Shown piece by piece: positions 7,920 through 29,957 of a DNA stretch of 35,645 nucleotides. The notes beneath the pieces were generated by a model that did not search any database, had not been told where the DNA came from, and saw only the letters and a list, made by a program, of their open reading frames with translations. Both the position numbers and the translations under genes were made by a program. Positions within the stretch are counted from its first letter, which is position 1. Each line of letters starts with the position of its first letter. This DNA is from Pseudomonadota bacterium (GTDB lineage: Bacteria > Desulfobacterota > Desulfobacteria > Desulfobacterales > RPRI01): positions 1-35,645 of the forward strand of contig JAHITX010000013.1 in assembly GCA_018817425.1 (NCBI GenBank), written 5' to 3'.

Positions 7920-7944
7920 TAAAGGAGAAAGGAGAACTTAAGTT

Positions 7945-9531: not shown

Positions 9532-9533
9532 TT

Positions 9534-10022
9534 ATGGATGAGAAAAAGTTACAATTGCTTTTAGATCGCACGGAAATTGTTGACATTGTTATACGTTATG
9601 CAACCAGTATTGGCCTGCACGATTGGGCCGGATTGCGTTCCTGCTATACTGACCAGGTGGAAATCGATTATACTTCCATGATCGGGGGAAACCCTATAGT
9701 TTTTAAAGCTGATGATTGGGTAACCTGGGCACGGGAGAATGCAAGTGGTTTTGAATCTGTGATGCATTATACTTCCAATGATGTTGTTACAATAAACGGT
9801 GATGAAGCAACGTGTATGTCCTACGTTCACTCCGAGTTTTACCTTCCAAATGATAAAGTAGACAGCATTTGGTCAGGTGGCGGTTACTATACCAATGGGA
9901 TGGTACGCACTCCCGATGGTTGGAAGATTAACAAGACAAAGTTAACGGTAAAGTGGTCAAAAGGAAGCCAGGAGCTTTTTGCGATTGCAAAAGAGCGTTA
10001 TGCCTCATCCGGTAAAGCTTAA
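9534..10022 (+). CDS. SnoaL-like (SnoaL_4) cone-fold protein, possible dehydratase or isomerase
   Basis: The 162-residue protein fits the NTF2-like/SnoaL_4 alpha+beta cone family. The start (RTEIVDIVIRYATSIGLHDW) and the residues Tyr22, Asp30, His78 and His99 sit where family members such as scytalone dehydratase and the bile-acid 7-alpha-dehydratase BaiE place catalytic Tyr, Asp and His residues. A dehydration or double-bond shift on a polycyclic or isoprenoid substrate is therefore plausible but unproven. It has no signal peptide. The ATG lies 2 bp after the stop of the CrtI-like gene, so the two proteins are probably made together and may act on the same compound. A hairpin at 10070-10089 follows the gene. 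Confidence 0.8.
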   Translation: MDEKKLQLLLDRTEIVDIVIRYATSIGLHDWAGLRSCYTDQVEIDYTSMIGGNPIVFKADDWVTWARENASGFESVMHYTSNDVVTINGDEATCMSYVHSEFYLPNDKVDSIWSGGGYYTNGMVRTPDGWKINKTKLTVKWSKGSQELFAIAKERYASSGKA

Positions 10023-10069
10023 ACTGATAGTGATAGGTTGCAAAAGTATCCGATACTGAAATCACTGGA

Positions 10070-10089
10070 ACCCCGGCAAATGTCGGGGT
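10070..10089 (+). terminator. Hairpin downstream of the SnoaL-like gene
   Basis: An 8-bp stem (ACCCCGGC pairing with GTCGGGGT, with one G-T pair) closes an AAAT tetraloop, 48 bp after the SnoaL stop. No U tract follows, so it may be an attenuator or RNA-stabilising hairpin rather than a simple intrinsic terminator. The following bases up to the ferredoxin gene at 10212 are AT-rich and could hold a promoter. Confidence 0.45.
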
Positions 10090-10211
10090 CCGGTATCTAT
10101 TGAAAACATAAAGTTTGCATTGTTTTTGAAGTTCAAATTAATTTTTATGGCTGTAATATAATTCAAATTATTTGATCAAATTAATGTATTAAAAAGTAAA
10201 GGAGGATGTTA

Positions 10212-10703
10212 ATGGCGAATAACAAAACTGGCGTTGCAGCAGATAAAACCGTGCCCTATCCAAAAGCAATAGGCTACATATCCATGGTTGACCCCAAGGA
10301 GTCGGTTTGCCAGGATTGCAGAAGTTGTGAGTTGTATTGTGCAGCAGTGCATGAGGCAGCTTGCGGACTTGAATTAAACAGAATCTGGGAGTCCAGAGAT
10401 CCTTTCCGCGGCGAGTACTTTGCTTATAGCTGCAAGCAGTGCATAGCACCCTCATGTATTGCAGCCTGTCCTGAAGACGCAATGTATATTGATAAAAAAA
10501 CCGGAGCCAGATGCATAGATGAAGAAAAGTGTAATGGATGTGCAGCATGTATAAAAGCCTGTCCTGTTGAACCGCCGAGGATCAACTATAACAGTGTAAA
10601 GAAAAAAGCTGTTAAATGTGATCTTTGTAAAGACAGAGCAGATGGTCCGGTATGTGTTCAGATGTGTCCTACCATGTGTCTTACTTTAAAGAAATATAAA
10701 TAA
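10212..10703 (+). CDS. Four-cluster [4Fe-4S] ferredoxin-like electron transfer subunit
   Basis: The 163-residue protein has four cysteine quartets in the pattern of DMSO-reductase-type iron-sulfur subunits: Cys33/36/39/43, Cys74/77/82/86, Cys107/110/113/117 and Cys136/139/148/152. It should carry up to four [4Fe-4S] clusters. There is no signal peptide, so it is cytoplasmic. The AOR-family gene starts 17 bp downstream, and such pairs are known, for example BamC with BamB or the electron-transfer subunits of aldehyde oxidoreductases. It probably passes electrons between the tungsten enzyme and another carrier. I chose the ATG at 10212 over that at 10206 because AAAGGAGG ends at 10205, giving proper spacing. 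Confidence 0.88.
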   Translation: MANNKTGVAADKTVPYPKAIGYISMVDPKESVCQDCRSCELYCAAVHEAACGLELNRIWESRDPFRGEYFAYSCKQCIAPSCIAACPEDAMYIDKKTGARCIDEEKCNGCAACIKACPVEPPRINYNSVKKKAVKCDLCKDRADGPVCVQMCPTMCLTLKKYK

Positions 10704-10720
10704 ATTGAGGAGGTGATAAA

Positions 10721-12712
10721 ATGAGTGAGCAATATGGATGGGCAGGTCAGATATTAAGGGTTAATCTCACCACAGGTGAGTTCTCTACAGTTGATACAAT
10801 GAAATATGTTCCAAAATATATAGGTGGTTATGGGATAGCGCTCAGATTGTGCTGGGAGGAAATGAAACCCGGAATCAAGGCTTTCGATCCTGAGAATAAA
10901 GTATTTATTATGAATGGCGTTGCATCGGGAACCATGTCCCCATCTTCCGGAAGAGTTAATTTTCTGGGCATATCACCCCACAGCTATCCGGAGCAGTTAA
11001 CCAACACTTCAATCGGTGGTCATTTCCCTGCAAGGCTCAAGTGGAACGGTTATGACGGAATTATTCTTGAAGGAAAATCTGAAAAGCCCTGTTATCTTGT
11101 AATTAAAAACGGCAAACCAAGCTTGGAATCGGCAAAAGATCTTTGGGGTTTGGGACTGATCGATTCGCAGCAAATTCTGCAAGACCGTCATGGTAAAAAC
11201 CGTTGCGATATATATGGAATAGGTCCTGCCGGCGAGAATCTTATCCGTTATGCCATAGTTGGTTGCGGAGCACACAATGCAACAGGGCAGGGTGGAATGG
11301 GTGCAGTATTAGGTTCCAAGATGCTTAAAGCCATTGTCCTGGTCGGAGGAAAACATCAGGTTAAGGTTAAAGATCCTGAAGCAGCTATTAAGGCCACGTT
11401 GGAATTTTATCCGAAAAAGCGAAAACGTCCTTTAGTTTATGCTGATTTAGGAGATAAACCTAATAATCCGTGGTGGGAAGAATGGACAGGTGGAAAAGAC
11501 ATTTTTGATAATCATGCCAAGGATTGGATGGGCAGCATCCACAATATGCCTTATCCGATTTTTGCAAAATCATGTGCTACCGGTTGTCTTGGCGGCTGTG
11601 GTTTCTTCGAATTTAAAAATGTACCGGCAGTTTCCCATCCAGGTCTTATGCTAGGAATGTCGGGCTGTGTACATACCAGGTATGAGCAGTTCTTTGACAG
11701 GCTTGAAGGGGAAAGAAATTTTGAAAAAGGTTTTGAAGTCCATGTATTGGCCCAACAATTGGGCTTTAACCATCATGAGATTAACTACGGCATAGTACCC
11801 TGGCTGCATTATACGAAAGAATTGGGAATTGACACCGAATCTTTGATGGGTATGCCAACAGACGTCCGGGACCATGAATGGTGGATCAAGCTGTTAAACA
11901 TGATTGCATATAGAAAGGGTTTTGGAGATACGCTTGCCGAAGGACTAAGAAGGACTGTGGAAAAACTCGGCCCGGAAAAATACTGGTATCCGGAATATGA
12001 AGGACCTGAAGCAGCTCGTGAAGGAGCTGCCAACCCGGTAAAGTATCCGGTAGCCGGAATCGGCGGATGGGGATATGCTTCAAGAGGTATTCTTGCTGAT
12101 CATGCTATGGGTCCAGCTGCCGCACTCCCGGGAGCCTTGTGCTGGATGATTGACACACGCGATCCTCATCACAATAAGTGGCCCGATTGGATACACAATG
12201 AGTTTATCGGCTTTATAATGAAAGAACCTGATAAGTACGGCAGCCCTTTTGTCGTGAAATGGGCCAAGGATGCTACAATGCGCGGGATTTTAATCGATTG
12301 TTTGCCTGCGTGTTTTCAGTTCCCATTAAGAAAGTATATGGGCTGGCTGTGGGATCATGAAGGGATTGGTGAAGGTTCTAAATCGACAGGCCTGGAGGCC
12401 AGGCTTTTCTCTGCAGTTACCGGAGTAGAAGTTACTGAAGCCGAGTATTATAAGGCAGGAGAAAGGATCAATACATTAACCCGTGCTATATTGTGCAGAG
12501 ATAATGAAAGAACTGCCAAAATGGAATGGGATGAAATGGAAAAGGTTATGTATCAAAGAATAGATATGGAAAAATTCAAGATCACTGTAGGAAATTGGTA
12601 TGAAGCGTTGGGCTGGAACAGAGAAACCGGCTATCCTACCATGGAACATCTGAAAGATATGGGAATTGAAGATCTGGCGCCTGAACTGGAAAAGATAGGC
12701 AAGTTGGGCTAA
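10721..12712 (+). CDS. Aldehyde:ferredoxin oxidoreductase (AOR) family tungsten enzyme
   Basis: The 663-residue protein has the AOR family layout: an N-terminal pterin-binding domain starting GWAGQILRVNLTTGE, the conserved GIGPAGENLIRYA segment (residues 166-178), and cysteines for one [4Fe-4S] cluster (Cys285, Cys289 and Cys293, plus Cys527 or Cys531). The spacing of the first three is C-x3-C-x3-C, not the C-x2-C-x3-C of classical archaeal AOR. The family includes aldehyde oxidoreductases and BamB, the active-site subunit of class II benzoyl-CoA reductase. The upstream four-cluster ferredoxin is the likely electron partner. A strong AGGAGG sequence precedes the ATG. Whether it oxidises an aldehyde or reduces a ring or acid cannot be decided here. 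Confidence 0.9.
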   Translation: MSEQYGWAGQILRVNLTTGEFSTVDTMKYVPKYIGGYGIALRLCWEEMKPGIKAFDPENKVFIMNGVASGTMSPSSGRVNFLGISPHSYPEQLTNTSIGGHFPARLKWNGYDGIILEGKSEKPCYLVIKNGKPSLESAKDLWGLGLIDSQQILQDRHGKNRCDIYGIGPAGENLIRYAIVGCGAHNATGQGGMGAVLGSKMLKAIVLVGGKHQVKVKDPEAAIKATLEFYPKKRKRPLVYADLGDKPNNPWWEEWTGGKDIFDNHAKDWMGSIHNMPYPIFAKSCATGCLGGCGFFEFKNVPAVSHPGLMLGMSGCVHTRYEQFFDRLEGERNFEKGFEVHVLAQQLGFNHHEINYGIVPWLHYTKELGIDTESLMGMPTDVRDHEWWIKLLNMIAYRKGFGDTLAEGLRRTVEKLGPEKYWYPEYEGPEAAREGAANPVKYPVAGIGGWGYASRGILADHAMGPAAALPGALCWMIDTRDPHHNKWPDWIHNEFIGFIMKEPDKYGSPFVVKWAKDATMRGILIDCLPACFQFPLRKYMGWLWDHEGIGEGSKSTGLEARLFSAVTGVEVTEAEYYKAGERINTLTRAILCRDNERTAKMEWDEMEKVMYQRIDMEKFKITVGNWYEALGWNRETGYPTMEHLKDMGIEDLAPELEKIGKLG

Positions 12713-12734
12713 AATTAAAAAAGGAGATATAAAT

Positions 12735-13811
12735 ATGACAATGGAAAATGAAGCCAGGACGAATGCCACGTTGGATGACCAACTCAGCTATAAGGAGACT
12801 CTGCCCAAGGGAGTTTCGTACATGGAAAATAACGGCTTTTTGGTCATGGCCGAGACCGAGGAGGGAGACGAGATTTCCTTTGTAAGTTGCATTTTTCGTG
12901 TGGGCGGCGGCAAGAAGGGACCCTGGCAGGTCGAGGACAAGTTTGTTGGACAAACCACTTTCCAGATCAAGCCCAAGGGATTTACGGGTACGATCAACGA
13001 CCTCGATTTCATCAGCAACCGCACTTGGGCGACTGACGACTGGAAAAGCGGCGAAGTCATCAAGACCGATGATGCGGTGATCTGGAAGCTGGATAACTGG
13101 CAATACATCTGCCGTCCCCCCTACTGGGAACTCAAGGGCGAGCACATGGGCATTGAATTCGATCTGCTCTTAAGCGGCATCGGTGACGCCTCATTTCACA
13201 AAGGAACCTATGCCGATTTAGCCAAGAACAACGTCGCCGGCTATGAGGCTCCGATGTGCTGTGAGGGCACCTTTAAACTTGAAGGCAAGACTTACAAATT
13301 GAGGAAAGACAAGTCATTCGGCTGCCAGGAAAAATTTACCCAACCGGCGTGGGACCTGGCCAAGGTGCTCAGAGGAGAGACCTACTACTGGGTCTGGTGG
13401 GCGAACGAATCTGTGCGGATCTTCATTTATTACTATCCCTCTGTGGGGAAAGCATATAGCCACGTGATGGTCGATGACCAGGAAGTGGACTTTTCCGAAA
13501 ACGGCCAGAGTAATATCAAGATGGAAGAACTGGAGTATTGGATCGATCCCAAGACGAGAATGCGGATTCCCGTCAAGTGGCACTTTACGCTGAAGTCGCC
13601 AAAAGGTGAGATCAATCTCGATGCTTCGGCCGAGTCACGGACCTTTTACGGCTACCTGAGCGAATCCGGAGCCACAATGCATTACGGACTGCATAGCCAT
13701 AGTCTGGGCGAAATGACTTTGGCCGATGGCCGCAAGATTACGCTCAAGGACATGCGTACCTATATCGAGCATGGATGGTGCGCAATACCGCTGCCGGCCT
13801 TTGCGTGTTAA
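12735..13811 (+). CDS. CrtC/AttH-like lipocalin-fold protein (putative hydratase)
   Basis: The 358-residue protein resembles the AttH/hydroxyneurosporene-synthase-like group (two lipocalin-like beta domains), which includes the carotenoid 1,2-hydratase CrtC and kievitone hydratase. It is rich in Trp and Tyr (for example YYWVWWANESVRIFIYYYP) and ends with IEHGWCAIPLPAFAC. No signal peptide is evident. Hydration of an isoprenoid or other alkene is possible, but the assignment rests on overall resemblance. AAGGAGAT precedes the ATG, and it lies 22 bp after the AOR gene. Base composition differs: sample lines inside the gene are about 57% GC, against 37-48% in sample lines of the flanking genes, with more C- and G-ending codons. 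This suggests recent horizontal acquisition. Confidence 0.65.
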   Translation: MTMENEARTNATLDDQLSYKETLPKGVSYMENNGFLVMAETEEGDEISFVSCIFRVGGGKKGPWQVEDKFVGQTTFQIKPKGFTGTINDLDFISNRTWATDDWKSGEVIKTDDAVIWKLDNWQYICRPPYWELKGEHMGIEFDLLLSGIGDASFHKGTYADLAKNNVAGYEAPMCCEGTFKLEGKTYKLRKDKSFGCQEKFTQPAWDLAKVLRGETYYWVWWANESVRIFIYYYPSVGKAYSHVMVDDQEVDFSENGQSNIKMEELEYWIDPKTRMRIPVKWHFTLKSPKGEINLDASAESRTFYGYLSESGATMHYGLHSHSLGEMTLADGRKITLKDMRTYIEHGWCAIPLPAFAC

Positions 13812-13831
13812 GGTTTTGAGACATAAGGGTG

Positions 13832-13852
13832 GGCCCTGGCTCCGCCGGGGCC
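13832..13852 (+). terminator. Strong GC hairpin after the CrtC/AttH-like gene
   Basis: A 9-bp stem (GGCCCTGGC pairing with GCCGGGGCC, one G-T pair) with a TCC loop lies 20 bp after the stop codon. It is much more GC-rich than the surroundings and lacks a following U tract. It could have arrived with the GC-rich gene, and could terminate or attenuate transcription before the flavoprotein gene at 13932. Confidence 0.5.
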
Positions 13853-13931
13853 TGACTCGTTGAGGGGAAAATTAGGAAAATAGATAATACAATGGCCAAA
13901 AGATATTGTAACTTACAAATGAATAAATAAG

Positions 13932-15650
13932 ATGAAAGAAAATAAGTCAAGACTGTCTCGCAGAGACTTTTTAAAGAATGCCAAAGTGGTAGTTGGCGGA
14001 GCTGTTTTAGGGTCTGCGGCACTAATCAATCCAGGTACTACCGGTAAAGCGATAGCAAGCACAGTTAAATCTTTACCGATAGAAACCGGAGATTGTCAAC
14101 CAGTGGAGTCGGATGACGTCAAGCCTATCCCTCCGGTAGATCCTCCGGCAGTATGGGATGAGCAGGCGGATATCGTAGTAGTTGGATTAGGGGGCGGTGT
14201 CGTTGGTGCTGCTAAGGCAGCTGAGATGGGAAGTTCTGTGATTGCTTTGGAGAAGATGTCGTTGGCAGGCGGCACTACATCGCATGCAGGCGCTTTACTG
14301 GCTCATGGAGCAAAAAAAGTGCCTAAGGTATCAGGCGCTCCGGCTTTTCACCTGGACAAGACAGTACAGAAAGCTATAGAAGAATCGCGTTATACGATAA
14401 ACAAAGAACTGGCTCGTGCAACAATAATTAAATGCGGTGAAATGGTTGATTGGCTCACTGATATAGGCGTTGAGTGGGAAACCAATCCTTTTGGAGTAGT
14501 CTATTCTCCCGCGGTCAAAGGCGACCCGGATCATCGTGGCCATGCTGCAATGAGAGTCGCTATAAATGCTGCATACGAATATCTGAAGAAAAAAGGTGGG
14601 AAGATCATATTAAACACCAAGGTAGTTGCACTGGTGAGAGATAAAGACAGAATAGTTGGTGTTAAAGCCACCAAGTTGCTTGAAGGAACTACCATATTTA
14701 TAAAAGCTAAAAAGGCTGTGATTCTTTCAGCCGGAGGTTTTTCCCACAATAAAAATATGCTTAAAAAATATGTGCCCACGGCCTGTAAGGGTGTAGGCAG
14801 CGTATCTATGGCTCTGCCTTCCAATACAGGAGAGTGTATCAGAATGGGACAGGGCGCAGGTGCTGATTTGTCAGGTTATGATACATTCACAGGGTTTGAT
14901 GGAGGTATAGATTTTTCAGAAGTAAACGGCCCGTGGTTCCGTTATCTTTATTCCGGTGATATCCAACTCGCCAGAGGCGCGTGGCTTCACTTAAACAAGG
15001 CATGCGAAAGATTTATGAACATAAGCAGTTCTCCTGCACAATTTTTTAGCAGGCCGTCGGCAATAATGGCTCAGCCTGGTAATCGGGCTTATGTGATTTT
15101 CGACAGCAATTACGAAAAAAACATATGGAAGTTTAAGCCTGTGGGTTGCAAGGTACCCATAACTCCCGGGGTGGATGAATGGATAATCCCAAGGCTTGCC
15201 AGTTCGGATTGGCGGGTCAAAGTAAAAGAAGCTATTACTATGGGGGCAATAAAAAGCTCAGATACTTTTGAAGGCCTTGCAGTAAAATTAGGCTTGAATT
15301 CTGAAAGATTTAAAAAAGCGGTTAATAAATGGAATGGGCATTGCAAATCAGGGATAGATCCGGAATTCGGAGAAGAGCTACAGTATTTGGTACCTGTTTT
15401 AGATCCGCCGTTTTATGGTATAAAAATAGGATGCAGTATGGGCTCAACCTCATGCGGCCTGCGGGTGAATCATAACATGCAGGTGTTGGATATAAATCAA
15501 AATATTATTCCGGGACTGTATGCCACATATTTTACTGCCGGAGGTGGTGCCGGAGAAGTATTGTTCGGACATCCGGCTGTTTGGAGCGCAGGAGGTTCCA
15601 TGACTACTGCGTACATGGCAGGTGAACATGCCGCTACCGGCAAGGGATAG
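13932..15650 (+). CDS. Tat-exported FAD-dependent reductase/dehydrogenase (flavocytochrome c / ketosteroid dehydrogenase-like)
   Basis: The 572-residue protein begins with a twin-arginine signal peptide (SRRDFLKNAKVV, Arg10-Arg11, then a hydrophobic stretch to about residue 32), so it is folded with FAD in the cytoplasm and exported. The FAD_binding_2 domain starts at about residue 81 (DIVVVGLGGGVVGAA) and continues with GGTTSHAGAL; a second FAD contact near the C-terminus reads GGGAGEVLFGHPAVW. The family includes fumarate and urocanate reductases and 3-ketosteroid dehydrogenases, which reduce or form C=C bonds next to a carbonyl. A pentahaem cytochrome lipoprotein gene follows directly, which favours a periplasmic respiratory reductase or dehydrogenase exchanging electrons with c-haems. 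The substrate is unknown. Confidence 0.87.
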   Translation: MKENKSRLSRRDFLKNAKVVVGGAVLGSAALINPGTTGKAIASTVKSLPIETGDCQPVESDDVKPIPPVDPPAVWDEQADIVVVGLGGGVVGAAKAAEMGSSVIALEKMSLAGGTTSHAGALLAHGAKKVPKVSGAPAFHLDKTVQKAIEESRYTINKELARATIIKCGEMVDWLTDIGVEWETNPFGVVYSPAVKGDPDHRGHAAMRVAINAAYEYLKKKGGKIILNTKVVALVRDKDRIVGVKATKLLEGTTIFIKAKKAVILSAGGFSHNKNMLKKYVPTACKGVGSVSMALPSNTGECIRMGQGAGADLSGYDTFTGFDGGIDFSEVNGPWFRYLYSGDIQLARGAWLHLNKACERFMNISSSPAQFFSRPSAIMAQPGNRAYVIFDSNYEKNIWKFKPVGCKVPITPGVDEWIIPRLASSDWRVKVKEAITMGAIKSSDTFEGLAVKLGLNSERFKKAVNKWNGHCKSGIDPEFGEELQYLVPVLDPPFYGIKIGCSMGSTSCGLRVNHNMQVLDINQNIIPGLYATYFTAGGGAGEVLFGHPAVWSAGGSMTTAYMAGEHAATGKG

Positions 15651-15723
15651 AATAGATATAAAAATTCAGGAAGATAGCGACAATAGATATCTTAATCTTA
15701 ATCCAAGAAAAAGGGATTTCAAG

Positions 15724-16209
15724 TTGCAAAAGATCATATTGTTTATTGCAGTAGTATTGTTTTCAATATTGCTGGTTACGGCTTGTGATAGCAAAACGGC
15801 TTTAATTAAAAAGCCGCTTTGCTGCTCTGCCTCACCCTTTGTCTGGAGTCCTGATGCGCGTTGTCTTGACTGTCACCCTACAGAAGTAAACTCAATGGCA
15901 AATCCTGCCCTATTGGCATCTAAGCATTCTGTGGCCGAAAAATCATGCTTGGATTGCCACGATATAGCAGACCTGCAAAAAGCACATAAGAATATTGATG
16001 CAAAAAACACACCTTCTCCATTACAGAAGTATTCATCGGCAATTTGTTTTAATTGCCACGGGAGTTATACAGATATTATCGAGCTCACAAAAGGCAAGAC
16101 GCGCTTAAACCCTCATGATTCACACTACGGTGAGATTGATTGTTTTATTTGCCATAAGATACATACTGCTAAATCTCCGGATGAATTTTGTGTTTCCTGT
16201 CATATATAG
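15724..16209 (+). CDS. Pentahaem c-type cytochrome lipoprotein
   Basis: The protein has five CxxCH haem-binding motifs (CLDCH twice, CFNCH, CFICH, CVSCH). It resembles the tetrahaem domain of flavocytochrome c3 and other small periplasmic multihaem cytochromes. I prefer the TTG at 15724: it gives a 20-residue lipoprotein signal with lipobox LVTAC (Cys21) and has AGGGA upstream. In-frame alternatives GTG 15622 and ATG 15628 overlap the previous gene and would leave more than 50 residues before the lipobox cysteine, although AGGTG does precede the ATG. The adjacent Tat flavoprotein is the likely redox partner, giving a split version of a flavocytochrome c. It ends 31 bp from the convergent activase gene, with no clear terminator between. 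Confidence 0.85.
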   Translation: MQKIILFIAVVLFSILLVTACDSKTALIKKPLCCSASPFVWSPDARCLDCHPTEVNSMANPALLASKHSVAEKSCLDCHDIADLQKAHKNIDAKNTPSPLQKYSSAICFNCHGSYTDIIELTKGKTRLNPHDSHYGEIDCFICHKIHTAKSPDEFCVSCHI

Positions 16210-16240: not shown

Positions 16241-17149
16241 TTACTGAACTTTCACAGTTAGGCCAAAAAGGCTTATCTGATCTTTTATGTGCTCTATTTT
16301 TTCATCTGGATACGTTTCTAAATCTCCAAGATTGTATTGCATACCTAAAGATTCATACTTCTTGATACCAAGCTTATGATATAGCATCAGATTTATTTCC
16401 GGGCAGTCCAATTCAAGGGCAAACTCCGCCAGTGCCTTTATATCCTCATCGGAGTCATTGCAACCCGGTATAAGAACCGCTCTTAAAATGATGGGAATGT
16501 TTTTGGAAACGATACGTTTGGCGTTTTCAGAAATAAGTTTATTGCTTACACCTGTAAGTTGCTGATGCTTTTTGGCATTGATTTGCTTGACATCAAAAAG
16601 TACCAGATCTACATATTCTAAAATAGGTTCAAGTACCTCCCATTTCACAAATCCGCAGGTATCAAGAGTTGTATGAAATCCAAGCTTTTTGCATTCTTTC
16701 AAAAGGGCAAGAAGAAAATCAGGCTGTGCTGTTGCTTCGCCTCCGGAAAAAGTTACGCCACCATCGGAATTTTTATAAAATAAGGCATCCCTTTTTACTA
16801 CATCAATTACTTCTTCTACACTCATGAGTTTGCCCGAAATCTTTCTTGCTTCGGCAGGGCATATATCCACACAAAAGCCACAACCCACACAAAGATCCCT
16901 GTCAATATGCAGAGCTCCTTCCGGTAAAATCTTAATTGCTTTGTTAGGGCAAATATTGACACATTTATGGCACCGTGAACAAAGTTGCTCCATGTAGAGT
17001 AGCTGTGGTACCTGTTTTTGTGATTCAGGATTTGAACACCAGGCACAGGTTAACGGGCAGCCTTTTAAAAATACAGTACTTCTGATTCCGGGCCCGTCAT
17101 GAATTGAGTACCTCTGGATATCAAAAACATAGCCATTTATTTGTTCCAT
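16241..17149 (-). CDS. Glycyl radical enzyme activating enzyme (radical SAM)
   Basis: The 302-residue radical SAM protein abstracts hydrogen from the conserved glycine of its partner enzyme. The SAM-binding cluster motif is CPLTCAWC (Cys31, Cys35, Cys38), and the GGE-type motif TFSGGEA is present. Between them lies a two-[4Fe-4S] ferredoxin insert (CSRCHKCVNICP and CVGCGFCVDICP), which marks the longer activases of decarboxylase, eliminase and hydrocarbon-type glycyl radical enzymes rather than the short PflA. Its gene lies 107 bp downstream of the glycyl radical enzyme on the same strand, and the two form an evident functional pair. AGAAGG precedes the ATG. A hairpin in the intercistronic space may set its lower expression. 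Confidence 0.94.
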   Translation of the reverse strand: MEQINGYVFDIQRYSIHDGPGIRSTVFLKGCPLTCAWCSNPESQKQVPQLLYMEQLCSRCHKCVNICPNKAIKILPEGALHIDRDLCVGCGFCVDICPAEARKISGKLMSVEEVIDVVKRDALFYKNSDGGVTFSGGEATAQPDFLLALLKECKKLGFHTTLDTCGFVKWEVLEPILEYVDLVLFDVKQINAKKHQQLTGVSNKLISENAKRIVSKNIPIILRAVLIPGCNDSDEDIKALAEFALELDCPEINLMLYHKLGIKKYESLGMQYNLGDLETYPDEKIEHIKDQISLFGLTVKVQ

Positions 17150-17256: not shown

Positions 17257-19665
17257 TTACATGCTCAGCTCGGTTCTGGCGATAATTTCATTTTGAAGTT
17301 TGTTGTCAAGCTGAACGAAAAAGGCGCTGAAACCTGCTACTCTGACCACTAAGTTTTTGTATTCTTTAGGAGTAGTTTGAGCTACTTTCAGCAGTTTGGA
17401 GCTCACAATATTAAATTGTATATGGTATCCGCCCATATCCATAAACGTTTTTATTAAAGATAATAGCTTTTTCTGTTCATCTGCATTTGCCACTGCCGTT
17501 GGATGGAATTTCATATTGAAGATGTTTCCGCTGTACTTTTCGTTATCCATTGCTTTACAAGCGGAATGTATAAGAGCTGTAGGCCCTTTTGTATCGGTTC
17601 CGGGAGTTGCTGAAATGGAACCATCGGTTAAAGCATTTCCGGCTCCACGCCCGTTCGGCTGAGCTCCTACGTGCATACCGAACCAACTATGCCCGGCTAC
17701 CACCACGCCCCAGGGTCTTCCGTCATCCTTGCCCAAAAAGCTTTTATGCTGCATTTGTTCATCATAAAATTCATCATAACCGGCCCTTACTATCTTATCT
17801 ACATAATCATCTTCATTGCCGTACTTGGGTGCTGCTAAAAGAAGGCGCTGTGTTTCTTCATGGCCTTCAAAGTTATCATTTAATGCCTGATGAAGTTGGG
17901 CCATAGTAATTTTTTTATCATCAAAAACTACTTTTTTAACTGCGGCTAAAGAATTGGCAACATCCACTGCACCGGCGAGACAATCCGAATCACCACCGAA
18001 CCTTGCACCGCCGTCAAGAACATGCTTGCCTACTTTCAGACAATCATCTACCAGAGAAGATGAATAAGGTGTCGGAAAATACTGCCCATGCACATTTTCA
18101 GATATACGGCTTGCGGTTCGAAGCATTTTTGTGAAATAGCGAAACTGCTTGCTTAAAGCCGATTCCAGATCTTCATATGTCTTAAATTTATCAATAGTGC
18201 CGGTTTGCAGACCCAGTTGTTTTCCCGACTTCGGGTCTTTGCCGTCATTTAAAGTAAGCTGCAGGATCTTGGCATAATTTAACAAGCCACCCCAAACATT
18301 ATCCATGCTATGGGCAACTGCGCTCTGGCTGCAACCTATTACCGTAAATGCATTAGCTTCCGCCGGGGTACAGTCCCAACGATCAAGGTTACGTTTTACA
18401 GCAATATGAGAGTTGATGAATGCAGGCTTGCCAAGCCCCATTTTAACTGTGTCGGCACATTTTAAAAGAAATTCCTCCGACATCTTGTTGTGCCATGCAC
18501 AAACGGTGCTGGGCTGGACCATCCGGACTCTTGATTCTGCTTCAAGCCACAAGAAATCAAGTTCATTAGTGGCATCTTCTCCATTTTCATCAAGCCCGCC
18601 GATCAGAAAAGTTTGAGCTGTATGTTGCTGGGCGCCTGTGGCATAAACCTCTGTTGAATACTGAATTCCGATTTCTGATAATTTAATGCAAAGCAATTCA
18701 AAAAGCTCGATTACTTCTTCATCTGTAATTCTGCCGGCTTCAATATCATCTTTATAAAACTTATATGTGTATTTTGTAAAACGGCCCGGGGCAATTGCTC
18801 CCTGTGCCTGTTCTATCCATGCGGCAGTATGAATAAGCCAGAAAGATTGAATCGCTTCATAATAGGTCCTGGCCGGATTTTCAGGAACTCTGCGGCAGGT
18901 TTCGGCAATTTTTTCAAGAGTTGCTTTCTTTTTTGCATCCTTTTCATTTTTTGCCATTTCTTCCGCTAAGTCAGCGTAACGGTTTGCCCAGGCAATAACA
19001 GCTTTTAAAGTTATAATAACAGCATCATAAAAAGCTTTTTTCTTAAAATCCTCATAATATGTTAGATCCAGTCGGGCCAATCCTTCTTGTGCCTCTTTTA
19101 TAACTCCGGATAAACCTATATTCATAACCTTTCCGTAATCCAGGTTGATAAGTCCCAAAGGAACGCCAACGATATCGATAAATACACCATGATCCAAAAA
19201 ATCCTGGCGGGTAAGGCCGGTTAAATTATTAAAGATGTTGTTTACTATATCTACATGTTTCTTGCCCCTGAAATAATCGTCTACCTCTATTAAGTATTGC
19301 TTTTCTTTCTGATCTACAGCCATATCTCCAAAGCTGCTGAAAAGTTTGTTTGCGGCTTCGTTATAATCAGGATAAGGGTTAACACCCCTTCGATCTTTGG
19401 CTAAACTCCCGACAATCGGATTTTCATCAATATAAAGTGTCATATTTCGAAGATATCTGTCCAGCACCTTTGCCCTGGTAACAACAATTGGTTCCCCGCC
19501 TGCTTCCTTATACACCTCATGTAAAGCTCTTGTTCTTTCTGTAGAGCTTTTGATCTCCGTGTCAACAAAGCTATCCTTTAGCCCTTTAACACGCTCGGTT
19601 AAAACAGCTTCTCCAGCTAATTGATAGCTTTGTATATCATCCTTTTTTAAAGCGCTTGTTTGCAT
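17257..19665 (-). CDS. Glycyl radical enzyme of unknown substrate (PFL2-like family)
   Basis: The 802-residue enzyme has the glycyl radical motif RVAGFSAFF near the C-terminus (radical Gly778) and an active-site thiyl cysteine in VIGCSQSAV (Cys445). It also has the family segments DGSISATPGTDTKGP (681-695) and GGYHIQFN (745-752). The diol dehydratase, choline lyase and arylacetate decarboxylase branches carry a catalytic Glu two residues after the cysteine; here that position is Gln447, so those reactions are unlikely as known. Loss of that acid is compatible with carbon-radical addition or other chemistry, but no small subunits like BssB or BssC are present. GGAGGC precedes the ATG. The nearby ene-reductase, AOR and CrtI-like genes suggest anaerobic catabolism of a hydrophobic compound. 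It is cytoplasmic and oxygen-sensitive. Confidence 0.92.
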   Translation of the reverse strand: MQTSALKKDDIQSYQLAGEAVLTERVKGLKDSFVDTEIKSSTERTRALHEVYKEAGGEPIVVTRAKVLDRYLRNMTLYIDENPIVGSLAKDRRGVNPYPDYNEAANKLFSSFGDMAVDQKEKQYLIEVDDYFRGKKHVDIVNNIFNNLTGLTRQDFLDHGVFIDIVGVPLGLINLDYGKVMNIGLSGVIKEAQEGLARLDLTYYEDFKKKAFYDAVIITLKAVIAWANRYADLAEEMAKNEKDAKKKATLEKIAETCRRVPENPARTYYEAIQSFWLIHTAAWIEQAQGAIAPGRFTKYTYKFYKDDIEAGRITDEEVIELFELLCIKLSEIGIQYSTEVYATGAQQHTAQTFLIGGLDENGEDATNELDFLWLEAESRVRMVQPSTVCAWHNKMSEEFLLKCADTVKMGLGKPAFINSHIAVKRNLDRWDCTPAEANAFTVIGCSQSAVAHSMDNVWGGLLNYAKILQLTLNDGKDPKSGKQLGLQTGTIDKFKTYEDLESALSKQFRYFTKMLRTASRISENVHGQYFPTPYSSSLVDDCLKVGKHVLDGGARFGGDSDCLAGAVDVANSLAAVKKVVFDDKKITMAQLHQALNDNFEGHEETQRLLLAAPKYGNEDDYVDKIVRAGYDEFYDEQMQHKSFLGKDDGRPWGVVVAGHSWFGMHVGAQPNGRGAGNALTDGSISATPGTDTKGPTALIHSACKAMDNEKYSGNIFNMKFHPTAVANADEQKKLLSLIKTFMDMGGYHIQFNIVSSKLLKVAQTTPKEYKNLVVRVAGFSAFFVQLDNKLQNEIIARTELSM

Positions 19666-20647: not shown

Positions 20648-21970
20648 TTACTTAGATAACACCAAAAAGTTATTTTTTGTGAAATACTTGGGACTCAGTT
20701 TGGCTTCAGGCAGGTATATATATGATTCCGGATGAGTCGAATTATTGCTGCTTGTAGCATGCCGGGCTTTTTCATCAATATACAGCGTGCAATCACGATC
20801 TCCCGTATTATTTTTACCGGTTTTAGTATCCTCGCTGTAGTGTACTATCATAGTAGCCCATGTTCTAAAATCACCGGATCTTTCATATACCTCTTTATAC
20901 CATATGACATAGCTTTCCTGATCAATATAGTTTATATGCCTGCCCCAGTTATAATAAGGATCTTTGGGTATCTGTTCTACAATCCATACCTTTCTTGGAA
21001 CATAGGTAATATTTTGAGGTGCCCATGATACACCCTTCCACTTGGGGTTTTCATAGCCCATAGGGATACTTGTGCCTGTGAAGGGAAATACCCTCTTCAT
21101 ACTTCCATCCGGCAATTCAGTTACCGGAAGAATATCCTGACTTGCAAATGAAGCAAGGATAGTTTTTTCTCCCACATACTTCCATTCCATGGAAGGTGTT
21201 TTTCCTGACCACATGTAATTGGCATCTATCCATGAATCAGAACCCATATACGGATCGGATCTTGATGTTGAGGTGGTTTGACGAGTCCTTCTAATTGCAG
21301 GGATATAGGCGTAACTGCTGTTATCCTTTATACCCATATAGGTATAGGCCATTGTATTGGTTCCTCTTACAGGCATAGGTTCCGATATATTCTGAAACTC
21401 ATAGGCAAGAACCTTATCGGGATTATAATTTATTTCCTGACCAGGTGGTCGTCCGTTCATGTAAAGGCGACTATCAATACCGGCTGCATAACGTTCCATA
21501 TTTTCTTTATCGATCCACTTGATACTGATATGATCTTTTGATCCCATAAAACGATATCTCTGGAAATCAAAATTGAATATGATCTTTTCTGCAACCTTGG
21601 GATCTTTAAGATAAATATCGGGAAAAGGCATACCATAAAGTTGTTCAGGGTATTTGCCGGTGCTTTTTTCGATCAGCTCACCTTTTTTGCTTATGTCGAA
21701 TTTCCCTTTATTTTTTCCACTTGCTTTAAGAAACTTGTCATCATGTGTATATTTGAAATTTATCTTCCCTGGTGTAAGAACAAAATCACCTCTTTCAATC
21801 GCACGATACATAGCTGGAATTATTATATCTTTATATTGATCGCAGTTATTCTTGTCGATAACTTTTGGCAATTCTTCAGCCTGCAGGTAACCGCCAAAAC
21901 CAAGAAGAATTACAAGAATGCAAAGCATCGGTAACTCAATAGGTTTAAAGATCCTTTTTAAAACTTCCAC
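20648..21970 (-). CDS. DUF1329 envelope protein, copy A
   Basis: The 440-residue protein has an N-terminal hydrophobic signal sequence (about residues 12-30, ending GGYLQAEE) and then a DUF1329 domain, which resembles LolB/outer-membrane lipoprotein-sorting folds. It should be exported to the periplasm or outer membrane. DUF1329 genes usually travel with DUF1302 genes, as here, and have been linked to handling of hydrophobic compounds; the exact role is unknown. It is a tandem paralogue of the gene at 23316-24638, roughly 80% identical by eye and of equal length. The start is GTG at 21970 after GAGGAGGA. The leader (about 21985-22040) resembles that of the other copy, so the duplication included upstream DNA. 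Confidence 0.85.
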   Translation of the reverse strand: MEVLKRIFKPIELPMLCILVILLGFGGYLQAEELPKVIDKNNCDQYKDIIIPAMYRAIERGDFVLTPGKINFKYTHDDKFLKASGKNKGKFDISKKGELIEKSTGKYPEQLYGMPFPDIYLKDPKVAEKIIFNFDFQRYRFMGSKDHISIKWIDKENMERYAAGIDSRLYMNGRPPGQEINYNPDKVLAYEFQNISEPMPVRGTNTMAYTYMGIKDNSSYAYIPAIRRTRQTTSTSRSDPYMGSDSWIDANYMWSGKTPSMEWKYVGEKTILASFASQDILPVTELPDGSMKRVFPFTGTSIPMGYENPKWKGVSWAPQNITYVPRKVWIVEQIPKDPYYNWGRHINYIDQESYVIWYKEVYERSGDFRTWATMIVHYSEDTKTGKNNTGDRDCTLYIDEKARHATSSNNSTHPESYIYLPEAKLSPKYFTKNNFLVLSK

Positions 21971-23315: not shown

Positions 23316-24638
23316 TTATTTAGACAACAGCAAAAAGTTATTAACGGTATAAAACTTGGGATTCAGTTTGGATTCAGGCAGATATATATATGCATCCGGA
23401 TCTGCTGAATTATTTGTGCTTGTTGCATGCCGGGCTTTTTCATCAATATAAAGCGAACAATCGCGATCTCCTGTATTGTTTTTCCCGGTTTGCGGATCTT
23501 CGCTGTAATGCACTACCATAGTGGCCCAGGTCCGGAAATCACCGGATCTTTCATATACCTCTTTATACCATATGACATAGCTTTCCTGATCAACATAGTT
23601 TATATGCCGGCCCCAGTTATAATAAGGATCTTTGGGTATCTGTTCTATAACCCATACTTTTCTTGGCACATAGGTAATATTTTGAGGTGCCCATGATATA
23701 CCTTTCCAGTTGGGGTTTTCATATCCCATCTGAACACTTGGACCGGTGTAGGGAAATACCCTCAGCATACTTCCATCCGGCATTTCTTTACTCGGAAGCA
23801 TATCAGGGCTTGCAAATGAAGCAAGAATAGTTTTTTCTCCCAAATAAATCCATTTCATGGTTGGAGTTTTTCCTGCCCACATGTAATTTGCATCCATCCA
23901 TGAATCAGAACCCATATACGGATCAGATCTTGATGTTGAAGTGGTTTGGCGAATCCTTCTAATGGCCGGAACATAGGCATAGCTTGAATTGTCCTTTTCA
24001 TCCATATAGGTATAAGCCATTGTATTGGTACCTCTTACAGGCATGGGTTCCGTTATATTCTGGAACTCATAGGTTAGAACCTTATCAGGATTATTTTTTA
24101 TTTCCTGACCCGGCGGACGACCGTTCATGTAAAGGCGGCTGTCAACACCGGCTGCATAACGTTCCTCTCCACTTTTATCAAACCATCTGACTCGGATTTT
24201 ATCTTTTGAGGCCATAAAACGATATCTCTGAAAATCAAAATTAAATATGATTTTTTCCGCAACCTTGGGATCTTTTAAATCAACATTGGGAAAAGGCATA
24301 CCATAAAGATGTTCAGGGTATTTGCCGGTGCTTTTTTCTATCAGATCACCTTTTCCGGTTATAGTGAATTTACCTTCATTCTTTGCACTTGCAGCAATAA
24401 ATTTATCATCATGCTTGAATTGAAAATTTATTTTTCCAGGTGTAAGAATATAATCACCTCTTTCAATTGCACGGTACATAGCCGGAATGATAATGTCTTT
24501 ATATTGAGCGCAGTTACTCTTGTCGATGGTCTTTGGTAAATCTTCAGCTTGCAGGGAGCTGGAAAAACCGAGAAGAATTGCAAGCAAGCAAAGCGTCGGT
24601 AACTCAATGTATTTAAAGATACTTTTTTTAATTTTCAC
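23316..24638 (-). CDS. DUF1329 envelope protein, copy B
   Basis: The 440-residue protein has a signal sequence (hydrophobic from about residue 12, cleavage expected near SSLQAED) followed by a DUF1329 domain. Conserved blocks shared with copy A include IIIPAMYRAIERGD, PGKINF, TGKYPE, YGMPFP and NGRPPGQE, so both are probably functional. It directly follows the DUF1302 gene (81 bp spacer) and is probably cotranscribed with it. The start is GTG at 24638 with AAGGAGGA upstream. DUF1302/DUF1329 pairs are thought to form an envelope system for lipid-like or hydrocarbon substrates. The two copies may have diverged in ligand, since the most variable parts are the N-terminus and short surface segments. 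Confidence 0.87.
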   Translation of the reverse strand: MKIKKSIFKYIELPTLCLLAILLGFSSSLQAEDLPKTIDKSNCAQYKDIIIPAMYRAIERGDYILTPGKINFQFKHDDKFIAASAKNEGKFTITGKGDLIEKSTGKYPEHLYGMPFPNVDLKDPKVAEKIIFNFDFQRYRFMASKDKIRVRWFDKSGEERYAAGVDSRLYMNGRPPGQEIKNNPDKVLTYEFQNITEPMPVRGTNTMAYTYMDEKDNSSYAYVPAIRRIRQTTSTSRSDPYMGSDSWMDANYMWAGKTPTMKWIYLGEKTILASFASPDMLPSKEMPDGSMLRVFPYTGPSVQMGYENPNWKGISWAPQNITYVPRKVWVIEQIPKDPYYNWGRHINYVDQESYVIWYKEVYERSGDFRTWATMVVHYSEDPQTGKNNTGDRDCSLYIDEKARHATSTNNSADPDAYIYLPESKLNPKFYTVNNFLLLSK

Positions 24639-26685: not shown

Positions 26686-26812
26686 CATAAGATTGTGTTG
26701 GAAAAAATTACCGTTGTTTTTACATAAAATGTTGAAGTAATAAAAATTCCCGATAAATTAAGACAGGGTTTTGCTTCGTAACTATTATTTCATGCTTTAT
26801 CAAGGTCAAGAT

Positions 26813-28234
26813 ATGTCCTCTGAAAATTTTTTACGCTATAAAACACTTGGTCAGCTTATCAAAGATTATCGTCAATTGCGCAAGCTAAGTCAAGAAGAGT
26901 TTGCTGACCCAATAAAGGTAAGTGTCAGGCAACTGCGAAGATGGGAGGCCGGACTCTCTCATGCTTCTGTAGAGAACCTTCAAGACATTGCCAATTATAC
27001 AGGAATACCCATGGAAGCATGTATTTCACTTAATGCAGATAATCCGATTTGGTATTCGCTGCAAAAAAAGCGGGTTGCGTATACATTGATTGAAGCGGAA
27101 TTCATAAGAATCAATGAGGTGTTGAAAAGATATATGCAATCCGGGCAAGATACATTCCTGGAAAATGAACAGGTTATAACGGAAAAGCATATTGATATGA
27201 TTATTTCATATCATAACGATGCTTATGGTATAAAAAAGCCATTGTCAAAAAATGTCTTCACAAAGGCTATAAACATGTTGCCTGATGTAAATCGTATTAT
27301 AATAGACAATTGGGGTAGCATGGCAGGCTATGTTATTTGTCTTCCCATAAAAATTGATGCTTATCAGGAACTTAAAAAGCAAAAGGTTCTCGAAGACTAT
27401 CTAACATCTGAAAAAATCAATGATATATTAACAATAGGTAAAGGAGTTTTTTTTCATTATTCCATTTTTTCAGCAAGTTTAAGCGTTGCATATCCGATGA
27501 TGGTGAAAAATATAAAATATCTTTCTGAAATAAAACAAAAAAAAGAGTATCTTACGGCTTTTCATACTGCCACTGTAAAAGGAGAAGAGTATTTCGAAGA
27601 TATGGGTATGAAAAGTGCGTGGAAAGCTGCTGATAATGATCATACAGATATAAATAGTATGCCACAAATCTTTGATATTGAATTGGATATTCTTATTAAT
27701 AAGTTTAGCAGCTATATTAATCCCATAACCGTTGATAATCCTATAACCGTTGATGCTTTAAGCCCGTATAATAAATCTAAAAATAATATAGATAAAATTA
27801 AGTGTCCTAATTCCGGATGTGAAACACATGATAATACGACAGATGGCAATATTATTTGCAACGGAACGTATTACACAAAACAGGGAGAGCAAAGGCATAG
27901 ATTTAAATGTAAAAAATGTGGCATATCTTTCAGCAGCAAAGCGGGGACCATTTTTTACGGTCTTAGATCTCCGGAAGAAAAAATTATGAAGGCCCTTAGT
28001 CTTCTGATTAAGGGGATGTCACTTACAAATGTAGCGAACGTCATGAATGTTAAATTCGACACTGTTCGACGTTGGCTGAGAGTTGCTGCTGAACAGAGAG
28101 GCAAAATTGATGCAATGCTTATTGAAAAGCTAAATGTTTCTCAGGCTGAATTGGATACCTTATGGACTTATATCAGCGAGAATTCCCTTCGTAAAAGAGC
28201 GAGCCATTGGGAAAAAAAATATAACAATAATTAA
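26813..28234 (+). CDS. Multidomain regulator: XRE-type HTH, possible GNAT-like middle, transposase-type zinc ribbon
   Basis: From the ATG at 26813 the protein has 473 residues. Residues about 10-70 are a clear XRE/Cro helix-turn-helix (LSQEEFADPIKVSVRQLRRWE). Residues about 165-290 vaguely resemble an acetyltransferase (GNAT) core, a tentative reading. Residues 331-470 contain a zinc ribbon (Cys331, Cys336, Cys366, Cys369) and a second helix-turn-helix (SLTNVANVMNVKFDTVRRW) like the N-terminal part of IS1/IS1595-type transposases. The catalytic transposase core is absent, so this is a regulator and not an IS. AAGG at 26802-26805 supports this start over TTG 26771 and ATG 26792. It lies 22 bp before the nitroreductase gene and probably controls it or the divergent DUF1302 operon. 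Confidence 0.75.
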   Translation: MSSENFLRYKTLGQLIKDYRQLRKLSQEEFADPIKVSVRQLRRWEAGLSHASVENLQDIANYTGIPMEACISLNADNPIWYSLQKKRVAYTLIEAEFIRINEVLKRYMQSGQDTFLENEQVITEKHIDMIISYHNDAYGIKKPLSKNVFTKAINMLPDVNRIIIDNWGSMAGYVICLPIKIDAYQELKKQKVLEDYLTSEKINDILTIGKGVFFHYSIFSASLSVAYPMMVKNIKYLSEIKQKKEYLTAFHTATVKGEEYFEDMGMKSAWKAADNDHTDINSMPQIFDIELDILINKFSSYINPITVDNPITVDALSPYNKSKNNIDKIKCPNSGCETHDNTTDGNIICNGTYYTKQGEQRHRFKCKKCGISFSSKAGTIFYGLRSPEEKIMKALSLLIKGMSLTNVANVMNVKFDTVRRWLRVAAEQRGKIDAMLIEKLNVSQAELDTLWTYISENSLRKRASHWEKKYNNN

Positions 28235-28256
28235 TATAATAAGGAGTATAAAGCTG

Positions 28257-29084
28257 ATGGGGCTTTTAAAAATAGATAAAAGTAAATGTAAACAGGACGG
28301 GCTTTGTGCAAAAGACTGCATGACTGCGATTATAAGAATCCCTGAAGGCGGTGGCTTTCCATATATACCTGATAATATGGAAAGTATGTGCCGAGTTTGT
28401 GGCCATTGTGTGGCTGTATGTCCCCACGGGGCTTTAAGCCATGAACTCGTACCACTCGAAAAATCTCCGGCTATAAAAGATGAACTTAAAATCAATCAGG
28501 ATCAGGCTGTGCAGTTTTTGCGGACTCGACGTTCTATCCGGTTTTATCATGACAAAGGTGTTGAAAAAGAAAAGATCCAAAAACTTATTGAAACTGCCCG
28601 CTATGCCCCTACCGCAAGCAACAGCCAATTGGTGGAATGGATAGTTATAAGCGATAAATCAAAAATACATACTCTTGCCGCCAAAACAACTGAATGGTTA
28701 AGGCAGTTGCTAAAAGACGACCCGGCTATAGCAAAAGCAAGCCCTTATCTGTATCAGGTTATTGCAGCCTGGGATGGCGGTTATGATCCGATCTTAAGAA
28801 AAGCGCCGACAGTACTTGTGGCATCAGCGCCCAAAGAAGCATTGGGAGGTGCAACGGATGTGGTTTTGGCTCTTTCATATCTTGAATTGCTGGCTCCTGT
28901 AATGGAACTTGGAACATGCTGGGCCGGATTATTAAACGGAGCGCTTACTGCCTTGCCTTCTTTAAAGGAATATATTGGTTTACCCAAAAAACATCCGCAT
29001 CACTTTCCTTTGATGATAGGATACCCAAAGGCAAAATATTACAGACTGCCTGAACGAAAGCAGCCCAGGATCACTTATATATAA
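28257..29084 (+). CDS. Nitroreductase family protein with N-terminal ferredoxin domain
   Basis: The 275-residue protein joins a ferredoxin-like domain (cysteines in CKQDGLCAKDC and CRVCGHCVAVCP, residues about 11-60) to an FMN-dependent nitroreductase domain that starts with TRRSIRFYHDKGV (about 92) and includes APTASNSQ. Such fusions in anaerobes reduce flavins, nitro groups or other acceptors using ferredoxin or NAD(P)H; the real substrate is usually unknown. I chose the ATG at 28257 because AAGGAG lies 11 bp upstream; the longer frame upstream only overlaps the regulator gene. The 22-bp gap suggests cotranscription with the regulator. The protein has no signal peptide and is cytoplasmic. 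Confidence 0.88.
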   Translation: MGLLKIDKSKCKQDGLCAKDCMTAIIRIPEGGGFPYIPDNMESMCRVCGHCVAVCPHGALSHELVPLEKSPAIKDELKINQDQAVQFLRTRRSIRFYHDKGVEKEKIQKLIETARYAPTASNSQLVEWIVISDKSKIHTLAAKTTEWLRQLLKDDPAIAKASPYLYQVIAAWDGGYDPILRKAPTVLVASAPKEALGGATDVVLALSYLELLAPVMELGTCWAGLLNGALTALPSLKEYIGLPKKHPHHFPLMIGYPKAKYYRLPERKQPRITYI

Positions 29085-29099
29085 ACAATAGGATACATT

Positions 29100-29957
29100 G
29101 TGAATAAAATTTTAGTTGCAGGTGCAACAGGCAATACCGGAAGTGAAATATTAAAACAGCTTTTGGAAAAGGGCGTGCAATTTAAGGCAATGTCCAGAGA
29201 CAAAAGTAAATTTAAAAACATAGCAGGAATCAACCGGGTAGAAGGTAATTTTGCAGATATCAGCTCACTGGTTTTGGCCTTTAAAGACGTGGAAAATATT
29301 TATGTTGCCATGCCGGCTCATCCTGACAATGAAGTATGGATAAATAATATTATTTCAGCTTCCAAAAAAGCAGGTGTTTTACATATTGTAAAATTATCGG
29401 GAATGGGAGTTAGTCCGGATGCAGGTTCTGAAATAATAAGGGTTCATGCAAAAACCGATGATATGTTAATGCAATCAGGATTAGTATATACATTATTAAG
29501 ATCCAATTCATTTTATCAAAATATTTTTGCATCAATTCCGACAATTAAAAATCAAAGTTCTATTTATTCACCATTGTCAGATTCAAAGCTTAGTTTAATT
29601 GATATAAGAGATGTAGCAGCAGTTGCAGTAAAAGCGCTGACAGAAAATGGGCACAACAATAAAATCTATAATCTGACAGGCCCTGAAACACTGAGTTATT
29701 ATGATATTGCAAAAAAAATCGGATCGGCCATAGGAAAAGATATTACCTACTATCCGATCAGCAAAGAACAGGCAAAATTGTCAATGTTAAAAGCCGGAGT
29801 TTCCGAATGGAGAGCCGATAAACTATCGGAAATTCTGGAGTGGTTTGGCAAAGGAGGTTTTGAGGCAATAAGCCCGGATGTTGAATCCGTGCTTAACAGG
29901 TCAGCTTATAGATTTGATGAGTTTTTTAATGATTATAAAATAAAATTCAATATTTAA
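29100..29957 (+). CDS. NmrA/QorB-like NAD(P)-binding protein (atypical SDR)
   Basis: The 285-residue protein starts with the NAD(P)-binding motif [13 protein letters not shown] and has the layout of atypical short-chain dehydrogenases of the NmrA/QorB type, including VKLSGMG in the middle and [15 protein letters not shown] in the C-terminal half. Members are quinone reductases or redox sensors. The start is GTG at 29100 with AGGA upstream, 15 bp after the nitroreductase, so a common operon with a redox-stress or reductive role is likely. The stop codon lies exactly at the boundary of the kup remnant on the other strand, so the extreme C-terminus may have been altered by that rearrangement. 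Confidence 0.85.

Follow-up and report, generated by a model that had tools for sequence, protein, structure and literature searches.

What reaction does a glycyl radical enzyme (GRE) catalyze when a glutamine stands in place of the catalytic acid two residues beyond its active-site cysteine (position C+2)? GREs are oxygen-sensitive radical enzymes, and one with this property is encoded on the minus strand at 17257..19665 of a 35,645-nucleotide stretch of Desulfobacterales DNA (contig JAHITX010000013.1), the whole of which is called the window here. The open reading frame begins with ATG, specifies 802 amino acids and matches both PF02901 (PFL-like, 555.6 bits) and PF01228 (Gly_radical, 89.5 bits). 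A preliminary description of the locus had read the active-site motif as GCSQSAV, with Cys445 and Gln447, and had considered the radical Gly778 motif to be intact. The open reading frame, the loop and the alignment all read in this way: the thiyl loop is IGCSQSAVAHS, with Cys445 (codon 18331-18333), Ser446 and Gln447 (18325-18327), and the radical loop is VRVAGFS, with Gly778 at 17332-17334. A 302-residue GRE-activating radical SAM enzyme with ferredoxin-type domains (16241..17149, minus strand; TIGR02494, Radical_SAM and Fer4) is encoded 107 bases downstream on the same strand and scores 361 bits on TIGR02494, against a cut-off of 174. The protein therefore has the glycine in RVxG[FWY], the mid-protein cysteine and the radical SAM activase by which a GRE is recognized, and it is very likely activatable. 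The best answer to the opening question, which we hold tentatively, is a functional GRE with a rebuilt active site that would carry out C-H activation and C-C bond chemistry on an apolar compound. This prediction of function draws on the motif, the clade, the change in the pocket, the activase and the gene context.

The glutamine at C+2 is more than a chance substitution. A protein search of the window's own genome (G000) found two GREs, the window GRE and a distant one on another contig (32% identity, GCVE). Among nine other genomes of the genus, close relatives occur only in G402, which has five of them, at 84, 79, 76, 60 and 58% identity and all with GCSQS. In 389 genomes of the order, for each of which no more than two matches were scored, nothing outside G000 and G402 exceeded 745 bits, against 1654-1692 bits within that pair. 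One of 294 genomes in a class of Chloroflexota (G899) has two full-length relatives (57-58%) and a partial one (59%) that ends its contig, with the loop GCVQT. The six closest sequences, the window GRE included, all have Gln447, and glutamine occupies C+2 in all eight rows of the window clade. A list of 92 distinct GRE sequences contains 20 with glutamine there, and 19 of these are the window GRE and relatives at 39-84% identity. Ser446 is not kept beyond the genus, being replaced by Val, Ile, Asn or Phe in the other glutamine-bearing rows, and so the motif is Cys-x-Gln rather than Cys-Ser-Gln. The twentieth glutamine-bearing sequence (36% identity; L087:4341-6797, genome G192) is a GRE-like protein with the thiyl loop GCFQ and with RVAT replacing RVAG at the radical site; it would appear to belong with the aminoacyl (Thr) radical enzymes of PMC11528403.

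The window GRE falls short of the cut-off of every one of the 12 NCBIfam models listed for it. The best is TIGR01774 (564 bits against 678), and membership in the IAD and HPAD families was rejected by score (481 bits against 1100 on NF033718, and 420 against 1150 on NF033715). Three trees were built, of 87, 83 and 70 rows, the last being the most careful, and all three recovered the clade of the window GRE. In the 70-row tree the protein lies within a 28-row clade with bootstrap/SH-aLRT support of 100/100. One side of this clade consists of four Chloroflexota sequences with Cys-x-Glu (100/98) and the other of 24 rows that lack the acid (98/93), which have glutamine at C+2 in 15 cases and Ser (5), Thr, Ala, Gly or Pro in the other nine; the 83- and 70-row trees do not settle how the other glutamine groups and the Ser/Thr group branch relative to one another. 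Membership in the BSS (benzylsuccinate synthase), HypD, HpsG/IseG, glycerol or propanediol dehydratase or AAD clades was rejected, all of these falling outside the 28-row clade in the 70-row tree. The reference rows were L040 (over the HypD cut-off, with L042 beside it), L036 (over the IseG/HpsG cut-off) and, for BSS, the BssB-linked rows. AAD (PDB 7e7l) sits on a branch of 1.69, and because that branch is long its own place is unsure. PhdB, true IAD and HPAD, AssA and any CutC over its cut-off were left out of the trees, CutC being represented only by a CutC-like row below the cut-off (946 bits against 1050). No description of the clade was found in the titles and abstract openings of the open PMC literature, and judged by sequence the 28 rows are an uncharacterized branch of the GREs.

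Two other acid-less arrangements were seen in the course of this survey. Ten rows with tyrosine at C+2 (GCVY) form another acid-less GRE group, near BSS in the 87- and 83-row trees (L016, L017, L019, L021, L022, L024, L025, L027, L028 and L107), and six of them were kept in the 70-row tree. At L113 (genome G707), two neighboring members of the acid-less clade, whose thiyl loops read GCVT and GCVA, are encoded on one strand with an activase between them.

The loss of the acid is accompanied by a change in the surrounding pocket. When residue numbers for HypD and BSS are taken from the published papers and mapped onto our alignments, HypD Glu436 corresponds to Gln447, His160 to Leu172 and Phe340 to Ala350, and the Asp278 column is gapped. 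Within the window clade, position 172 is Leu, Phe or Tyr and position 350 is Ala, Gly or Ser. When the clade and its sisters are taken together (35 rows), every row without the acid has Gly, Ala or Ser at position 350 (24/24), and every row with Glu or Asp has F, Y or M there together with Arg at 172 (11/11). The Arg/aromatic/acid set of these 11 rows resembles Arg226, Phe401 and Glu502 of IAD, an equivalence based on spacing only: in the sister row L031 the Arg lies 273 residues and the aromatic residue 95 residues from the cysteine, compared to 274 and 99 in IAD. Of the sister rows, L031 also has the highest score on the model for IAD (647 bits against the cut-off of 1100). The window GRE lacks all three members of the set.

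Variants made in characterized enzymes indicate what the loss of the glutamate might mean. In the passages reporting these variants, IslA E470Q formed 11% radical (wild type, 21%) and had no activity (PMC8473560), HypD E436Q formed 12% radical (wild type, 51%) and had no activity (PMC7077986), and IAD E502Q gained the radical and made no skatole (PMC9248008). Glutamine at C+2 is thus compatible with radical formation and incompatible with the reactions of IslA, HypD and IAD. Because these mutants form the radical and are nevertheless dead, elimination of the Cys-x-Glu (CXE) type is unlikely here, and the suggestion in the preliminary description that the reaction differs from that of the eliminase branch is strengthened. 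The same description had called the glutamate at C+2 a hallmark of both the eliminase and the decarboxylase branches. It is indeed described as an eliminase feature, but it is not a feature of all decarboxylases: the thiyl loop of AAD is GGCVLH, with Leu at C+2, and phenylacetate decarboxylase (PAD, PhdB) evidently has Gln, since a single sentence of PMC9248008 states that Glu502 of IAD was changed to Gln "to mimic PAD". This implied glutamine bears on the two outcomes that the preliminary description had set for its proposal of a new function. The separate cluster that it anticipated does exist and is well supported in all three trees, though with Cys-x-Gln as its motif; as for a characterized clade sharing the motif, the protein lies outside the references tested, but PhdB, which is also a GRE with a cognate radical SAM activase (as stated in a passage of PMC9226047), stays a live candidate.

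Structural prediction is informative about the fold only. An AlphaFold model of the window GRE from 10 sequences has a mean pLDDT of 71, with much of the barrel well predicted, while the stretches below 50 include 334-350, 442-459, 645-663, 665-696 and 754-802. Modeling of the active site therefore failed, its loops being poorly predicted, and the model was used for fold comparison alone. The closest solved structure, both by sequence (481 bits) and by Foldseek (TM 0.81), is glycerol dehydratase 1r8w. Many GREs score a TM near 0.8, so the comparison does not discriminate among them, and on the model's evidence the match says only that the protein has a GRE barrel.

The gene context points to apolar compounds. 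Two DUF1329 genes and a DUF1302 gene lie upstream of the window GRE on the same strand. The former encode LolA-like proteins resembling AmeB (PF07044; copy 1 at 20648..21970 and copy 2, 80% identical, at 23316..24638, both minus strand), and the latter an outer-membrane-type protein resembling AmeA (PF06980; 24720..26339, minus strand). DUF1329 homologues occur near four of the five G402 relatives, and the DUF1302 protein has a 68% homologue at L043 and others at L044 and L047. COG4447 is, we presume, the Ycf48 group. According to passages of PMC6394551, AmeC belongs to COG4447, and AmeABCD is a monoterpene exporter of Castellaniella defragrans whose deletion lowered monoterpene tolerance. A similar set stands beside the 79% relative at L044, where the genes after the GRE on its strand encode an MMPL/RND pump (best family HAE3, 146 bits against a cut-off of 352), a Ycf48-like protein (147 bits against 326) and homologues of the DUF1302 and DUF1329 proteins; next to the window GRE, the DUF1302 gene and the two DUF1329 genes alone were recognized. 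Exporter-like genes so near to the GRE suggest an apolar substrate or product.

A second line of evidence comes from the distant relatives in G899. Both full-length copies adjoin a gene for a type III CoA-transferase, at L137 together with SdhAB-like genes on the same strand and at L136 without them; the SdhB-like gene exceeds its cut-off (166 bits against 88). Other relatives keep different company. At L139, in the Ser/Thr group, the neighbors are CoA-transferase, thiolase and OB-fold genes. L047, a member of the window clade, has a crotonase gene and an HGD-D pair, and L114 has two ATPases, an amidohydrolase and HGD-D subunits nearest to the benzoyl-CoA reductase proteins bzdN and bzdO (350 bits against 454, and 310 against 449). 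L048 has acyl-CoA dehydrogenase neighbors. Its 19-kb contig (genome G212) carries three complete GREs and a fourth truncated at the contig end. Four genes for acyl-CoA dehydrogenases, of which one is a fragment, are interspersed among them, and the arrangement looks like a local amplification of a GRE module.

In the most likely reaction, an apolar, probably cyclic compound would lose a hydrogen from an activated (allylic or benzylic) C-H bond to the Cys445 thiyl radical, after which the substrate radical would make or break a C-C bond. No general base would be needed for such a step; Gln447 could serve as a hydrogen-bond donor or spacer without charge, and the pocket as changed, with Ala350 and Leu172, could accommodate a bulky substrate. 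We infer the substrate class, the C-C bond chemistry, its direction and the co-substrate. As the entry step of hydrocarbon or terpenoid degradation, formation of a bond with a small unsaturated acid seems somewhat more likely than decarboxylation because of the CoA-transferase and SdhAB-like neighbors in G899 and because the window, L043 and L044 look like entry modules. A more specific proposal is that the acid-less clade arose from CXE ancestors resembling decarboxylases, independently of the benzylsuccinate synthases, and that it couples a small unsaturated acid to an apolar cyclic or terpenoid compound with no accessory subunits. We regard this proposal as doubtful; if it were true, the GRE, type III CoA-transferase and SdhAB-like genes of G899 would close a co-substrate cycle.

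Several observations weigh against C-C bond chemistry on an apolar compound, and against bond formation in particular. Over all 70 rows the link between the acid and position 350 is looser: rows with the acid have an aromatic residue there in 27 cases, another residue in five and a small one in four, and rows without it have a small residue in 24, another in eight and an aromatic one in two. Loss of the acid and the change at position 350 both fall on about one branch, and hence count as one joint event. The CoA-transferase and SdhAB-like genes adjoin the relatives in the Chloroflexota class and not the window GRE; the SdhA-like proteins reach only 177 bits against 587 and 174 against 567, and the CoA-transferase scores higher as a succinate/HMG CoA-transferase (181 bits) than as a benzylsuccinate CoA-transferase (148 bits). 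DUF1329 matches number 29 in G000 and 33 in G402, fragments included, which makes them a general trait of the genus rather than a marker of the GRE reaction. The fumarate-adding enzymes BSS, MasD/ASS and limonenylsuccinate synthase share with the window GRE an apolar-substrate context and a C+2 residue that is not an acid (the BSS-type rows read LCMSPG, with Ser at C+2). However, Arg508 of BSS, which binds fumarate (a passage of PMC11194802), falls in a column that is gapped in all 28 clade rows, the residue at C+15 of the window GRE being Gly460. A search for BssB/TutG (PF18512) in G000 and eight genomes with clade relatives found no match and contained no positive control, although the same model found BssB over its cut-off in two of 147 genomes of the class. 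The preliminary description had noted the absence of small BssB/BssC-type subunits, and the search likewise found no BssB, BssC not having been searched; its conclusion that this is not a standard fumarate-adding complex agrees with the missing Arg508 counterpart and with the position outside the BSS clade, ASS itself being absent from the trees. Limonenylsuccinate synthase was dropped as a candidate because its 61% identity to the Bss alpha subunit (a passage of PMC12583861) places it in the BSS branch. The missing arginine, the missing BssB and the weak SdhA score thus weaken the case for bond formation, and the implied glutamine of PhdB and the IAD-like rows beside the clade speak for decarboxylation.

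Decarboxylation is accordingly the main rival: a PhdB-like enzyme would abstract a methylene hydrogen from an arylacetate or another activated acid, lose CO2 and return the hydrogen, and the exporter genes would help to remove the resulting hydrocarbon. We consider this possible though unlikely. A decarboxylase with glutamine at C+2 evidently exists, and L031 and the other rows that keep Arg172, F/Y/M350 and the acid with nearly IAD-like spacing lie next to the clade. The window clade, on the other hand, has lost the presumed counterparts of Arg226, Phe401 and Glu502, residues at which variants of IAD were inactive and which were reported as needed for its activity (a passage of PMC9248008). 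The IAD and HPAD scores of the window GRE are under half of the cut-offs, AAD, which also lacks the glutamate, lies outside the clade on its long branch, and the CoA-transferases of G899 suggest an acid product rather than a hydrocarbon. An eliminase or dehydratase that uses another base, such as His348, His452 or His659, is improbable. Glycerol dehydratase is the nearest solved structure, all eight window-clade rows keep His348 and His452, and the CXE eliminases (glycerol dehydratase 1r8w, propanediol dehydratase, HypD, CutC, IslA/IseG and HpsG) have the same fold, thiyl and glycyl loops and type of activase. But the window GRE forms a separate clade from them, its counterparts of HypD Glu436, His160 and Phe340 are replaced and that of Asp278 is gapped, and the same Glu-to-Gln change abolishes the activity of IslA and HypD. 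The window GRE is unlikely to be a CXE eliminase.

Equally improbable, in our judgment, is action on CoA-bound or free alicyclic or aromatic intermediates after ring reduction, for example in ring isomerization or opening. The HGD-D subunits, crotonases, amidohydrolases and acyl-CoA dehydrogenases around the relatives at L047, L048 and L114 would suit such a role, and the best models for those acyl-CoA dehydrogenases, below their cut-offs, are acryloyl-CoA reductase and cyclohexane-1-carbonyl-CoA dehydrogenase. No such gene was recognized beside the GRE in the window, L043 or L044 in a scan covering part of the open reading frames, however, and the 17 HGD-D matches of the window's genome lie elsewhere. 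To our knowledge, no GRE of this branch takes CoA esters. That the protein is a degenerate or inactive GRE might be argued from the loss of the catalytic acid and two other pocket residues, but it is very improbable: all six close copies have full-length open frames and keep the Cys and Gly loops, the activase is adjacent at three of six loci, and genomes of two phyla retain the glutamine. The reading that we prefer remains C-C bond chemistry on an apolar compound.

The wider surroundings of the gene complete the picture. The tandem DUF1329 copies are 1.3 kb apart, with no open reading frame of at least 100 amino acids listed between them. Divergent from the DUF1302 gene is one for an HTH_3 (XRE-type) regulator (26771..28234, plus strand; PF01381), with homologues at L043, L044, L046 and L047. 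Genes follow on the plus strand for a nitroreductase-family protein with a ferredoxin domain (28134..29084), kept beside the regulator at L043 (85%), and for an NmrA-like NAD(P)-binding protein (29100..29957), also kept there (79%). Comparison of six family loci, including the window and L045 with its short contig, found DUF1329 at five, DUF1302 at four, the regulator at five and the activase at three. BLAST found no homologue of the DUF1302 or DUF1329 proteins in the regions compared from beyond the genus. Intergenic DNA upstream of the GRE is only weakly similar between loci, and the window has no Rfam match at gathering score and no tRNA gene. Convergent with the GRE, the plus-strand run at 5967-16209 encodes old-yellow-enzyme-like, amine-oxidase-like flavoprotein, SnoaL-like and FeS proteins, an aldehyde ferredoxin oxidoreductase, a weak Lipocalin_9 match, an FAD reductase with an apparent Tat signal (RRDFLK) and a c3-type cytochrome; a similar set occurs at L170 in the same genome (FAD reductase 79%, cytochrome 62%). 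The DUF1329 matches of G000 and G402 far exceed the GRE loci in number, and many lie in catabolic-looking clusters. A sample of 16 DUF1329 stretches in G000 includes several that are surrounded by old-yellow-enzyme-like, amine-oxidase-like, FAD-reductase-like or HGD-D genes. Given these DUF1329 and HGD-D matches and their catabolic-looking surroundings, the organism looks like a degrader of apolar compounds.

A replacement that inactivates IslA, HypD and IAD is thus naturally kept in two phyla, together with a changed pocket, and the clade provides a delimited group of enzymes in which radical chemistry independent of the CXE base can be tested. Its bacteria look equipped to degrade apolar compounds, and the window GRE may initiate the degradation of a hydrocarbon-like molecule through an as yet undescribed chemistry. 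If the clade does activate hydrocarbons without extra subunits, it would represent an unrecognized anaerobic entry route, with a marker gene that is missed by bssA/assA surveys.

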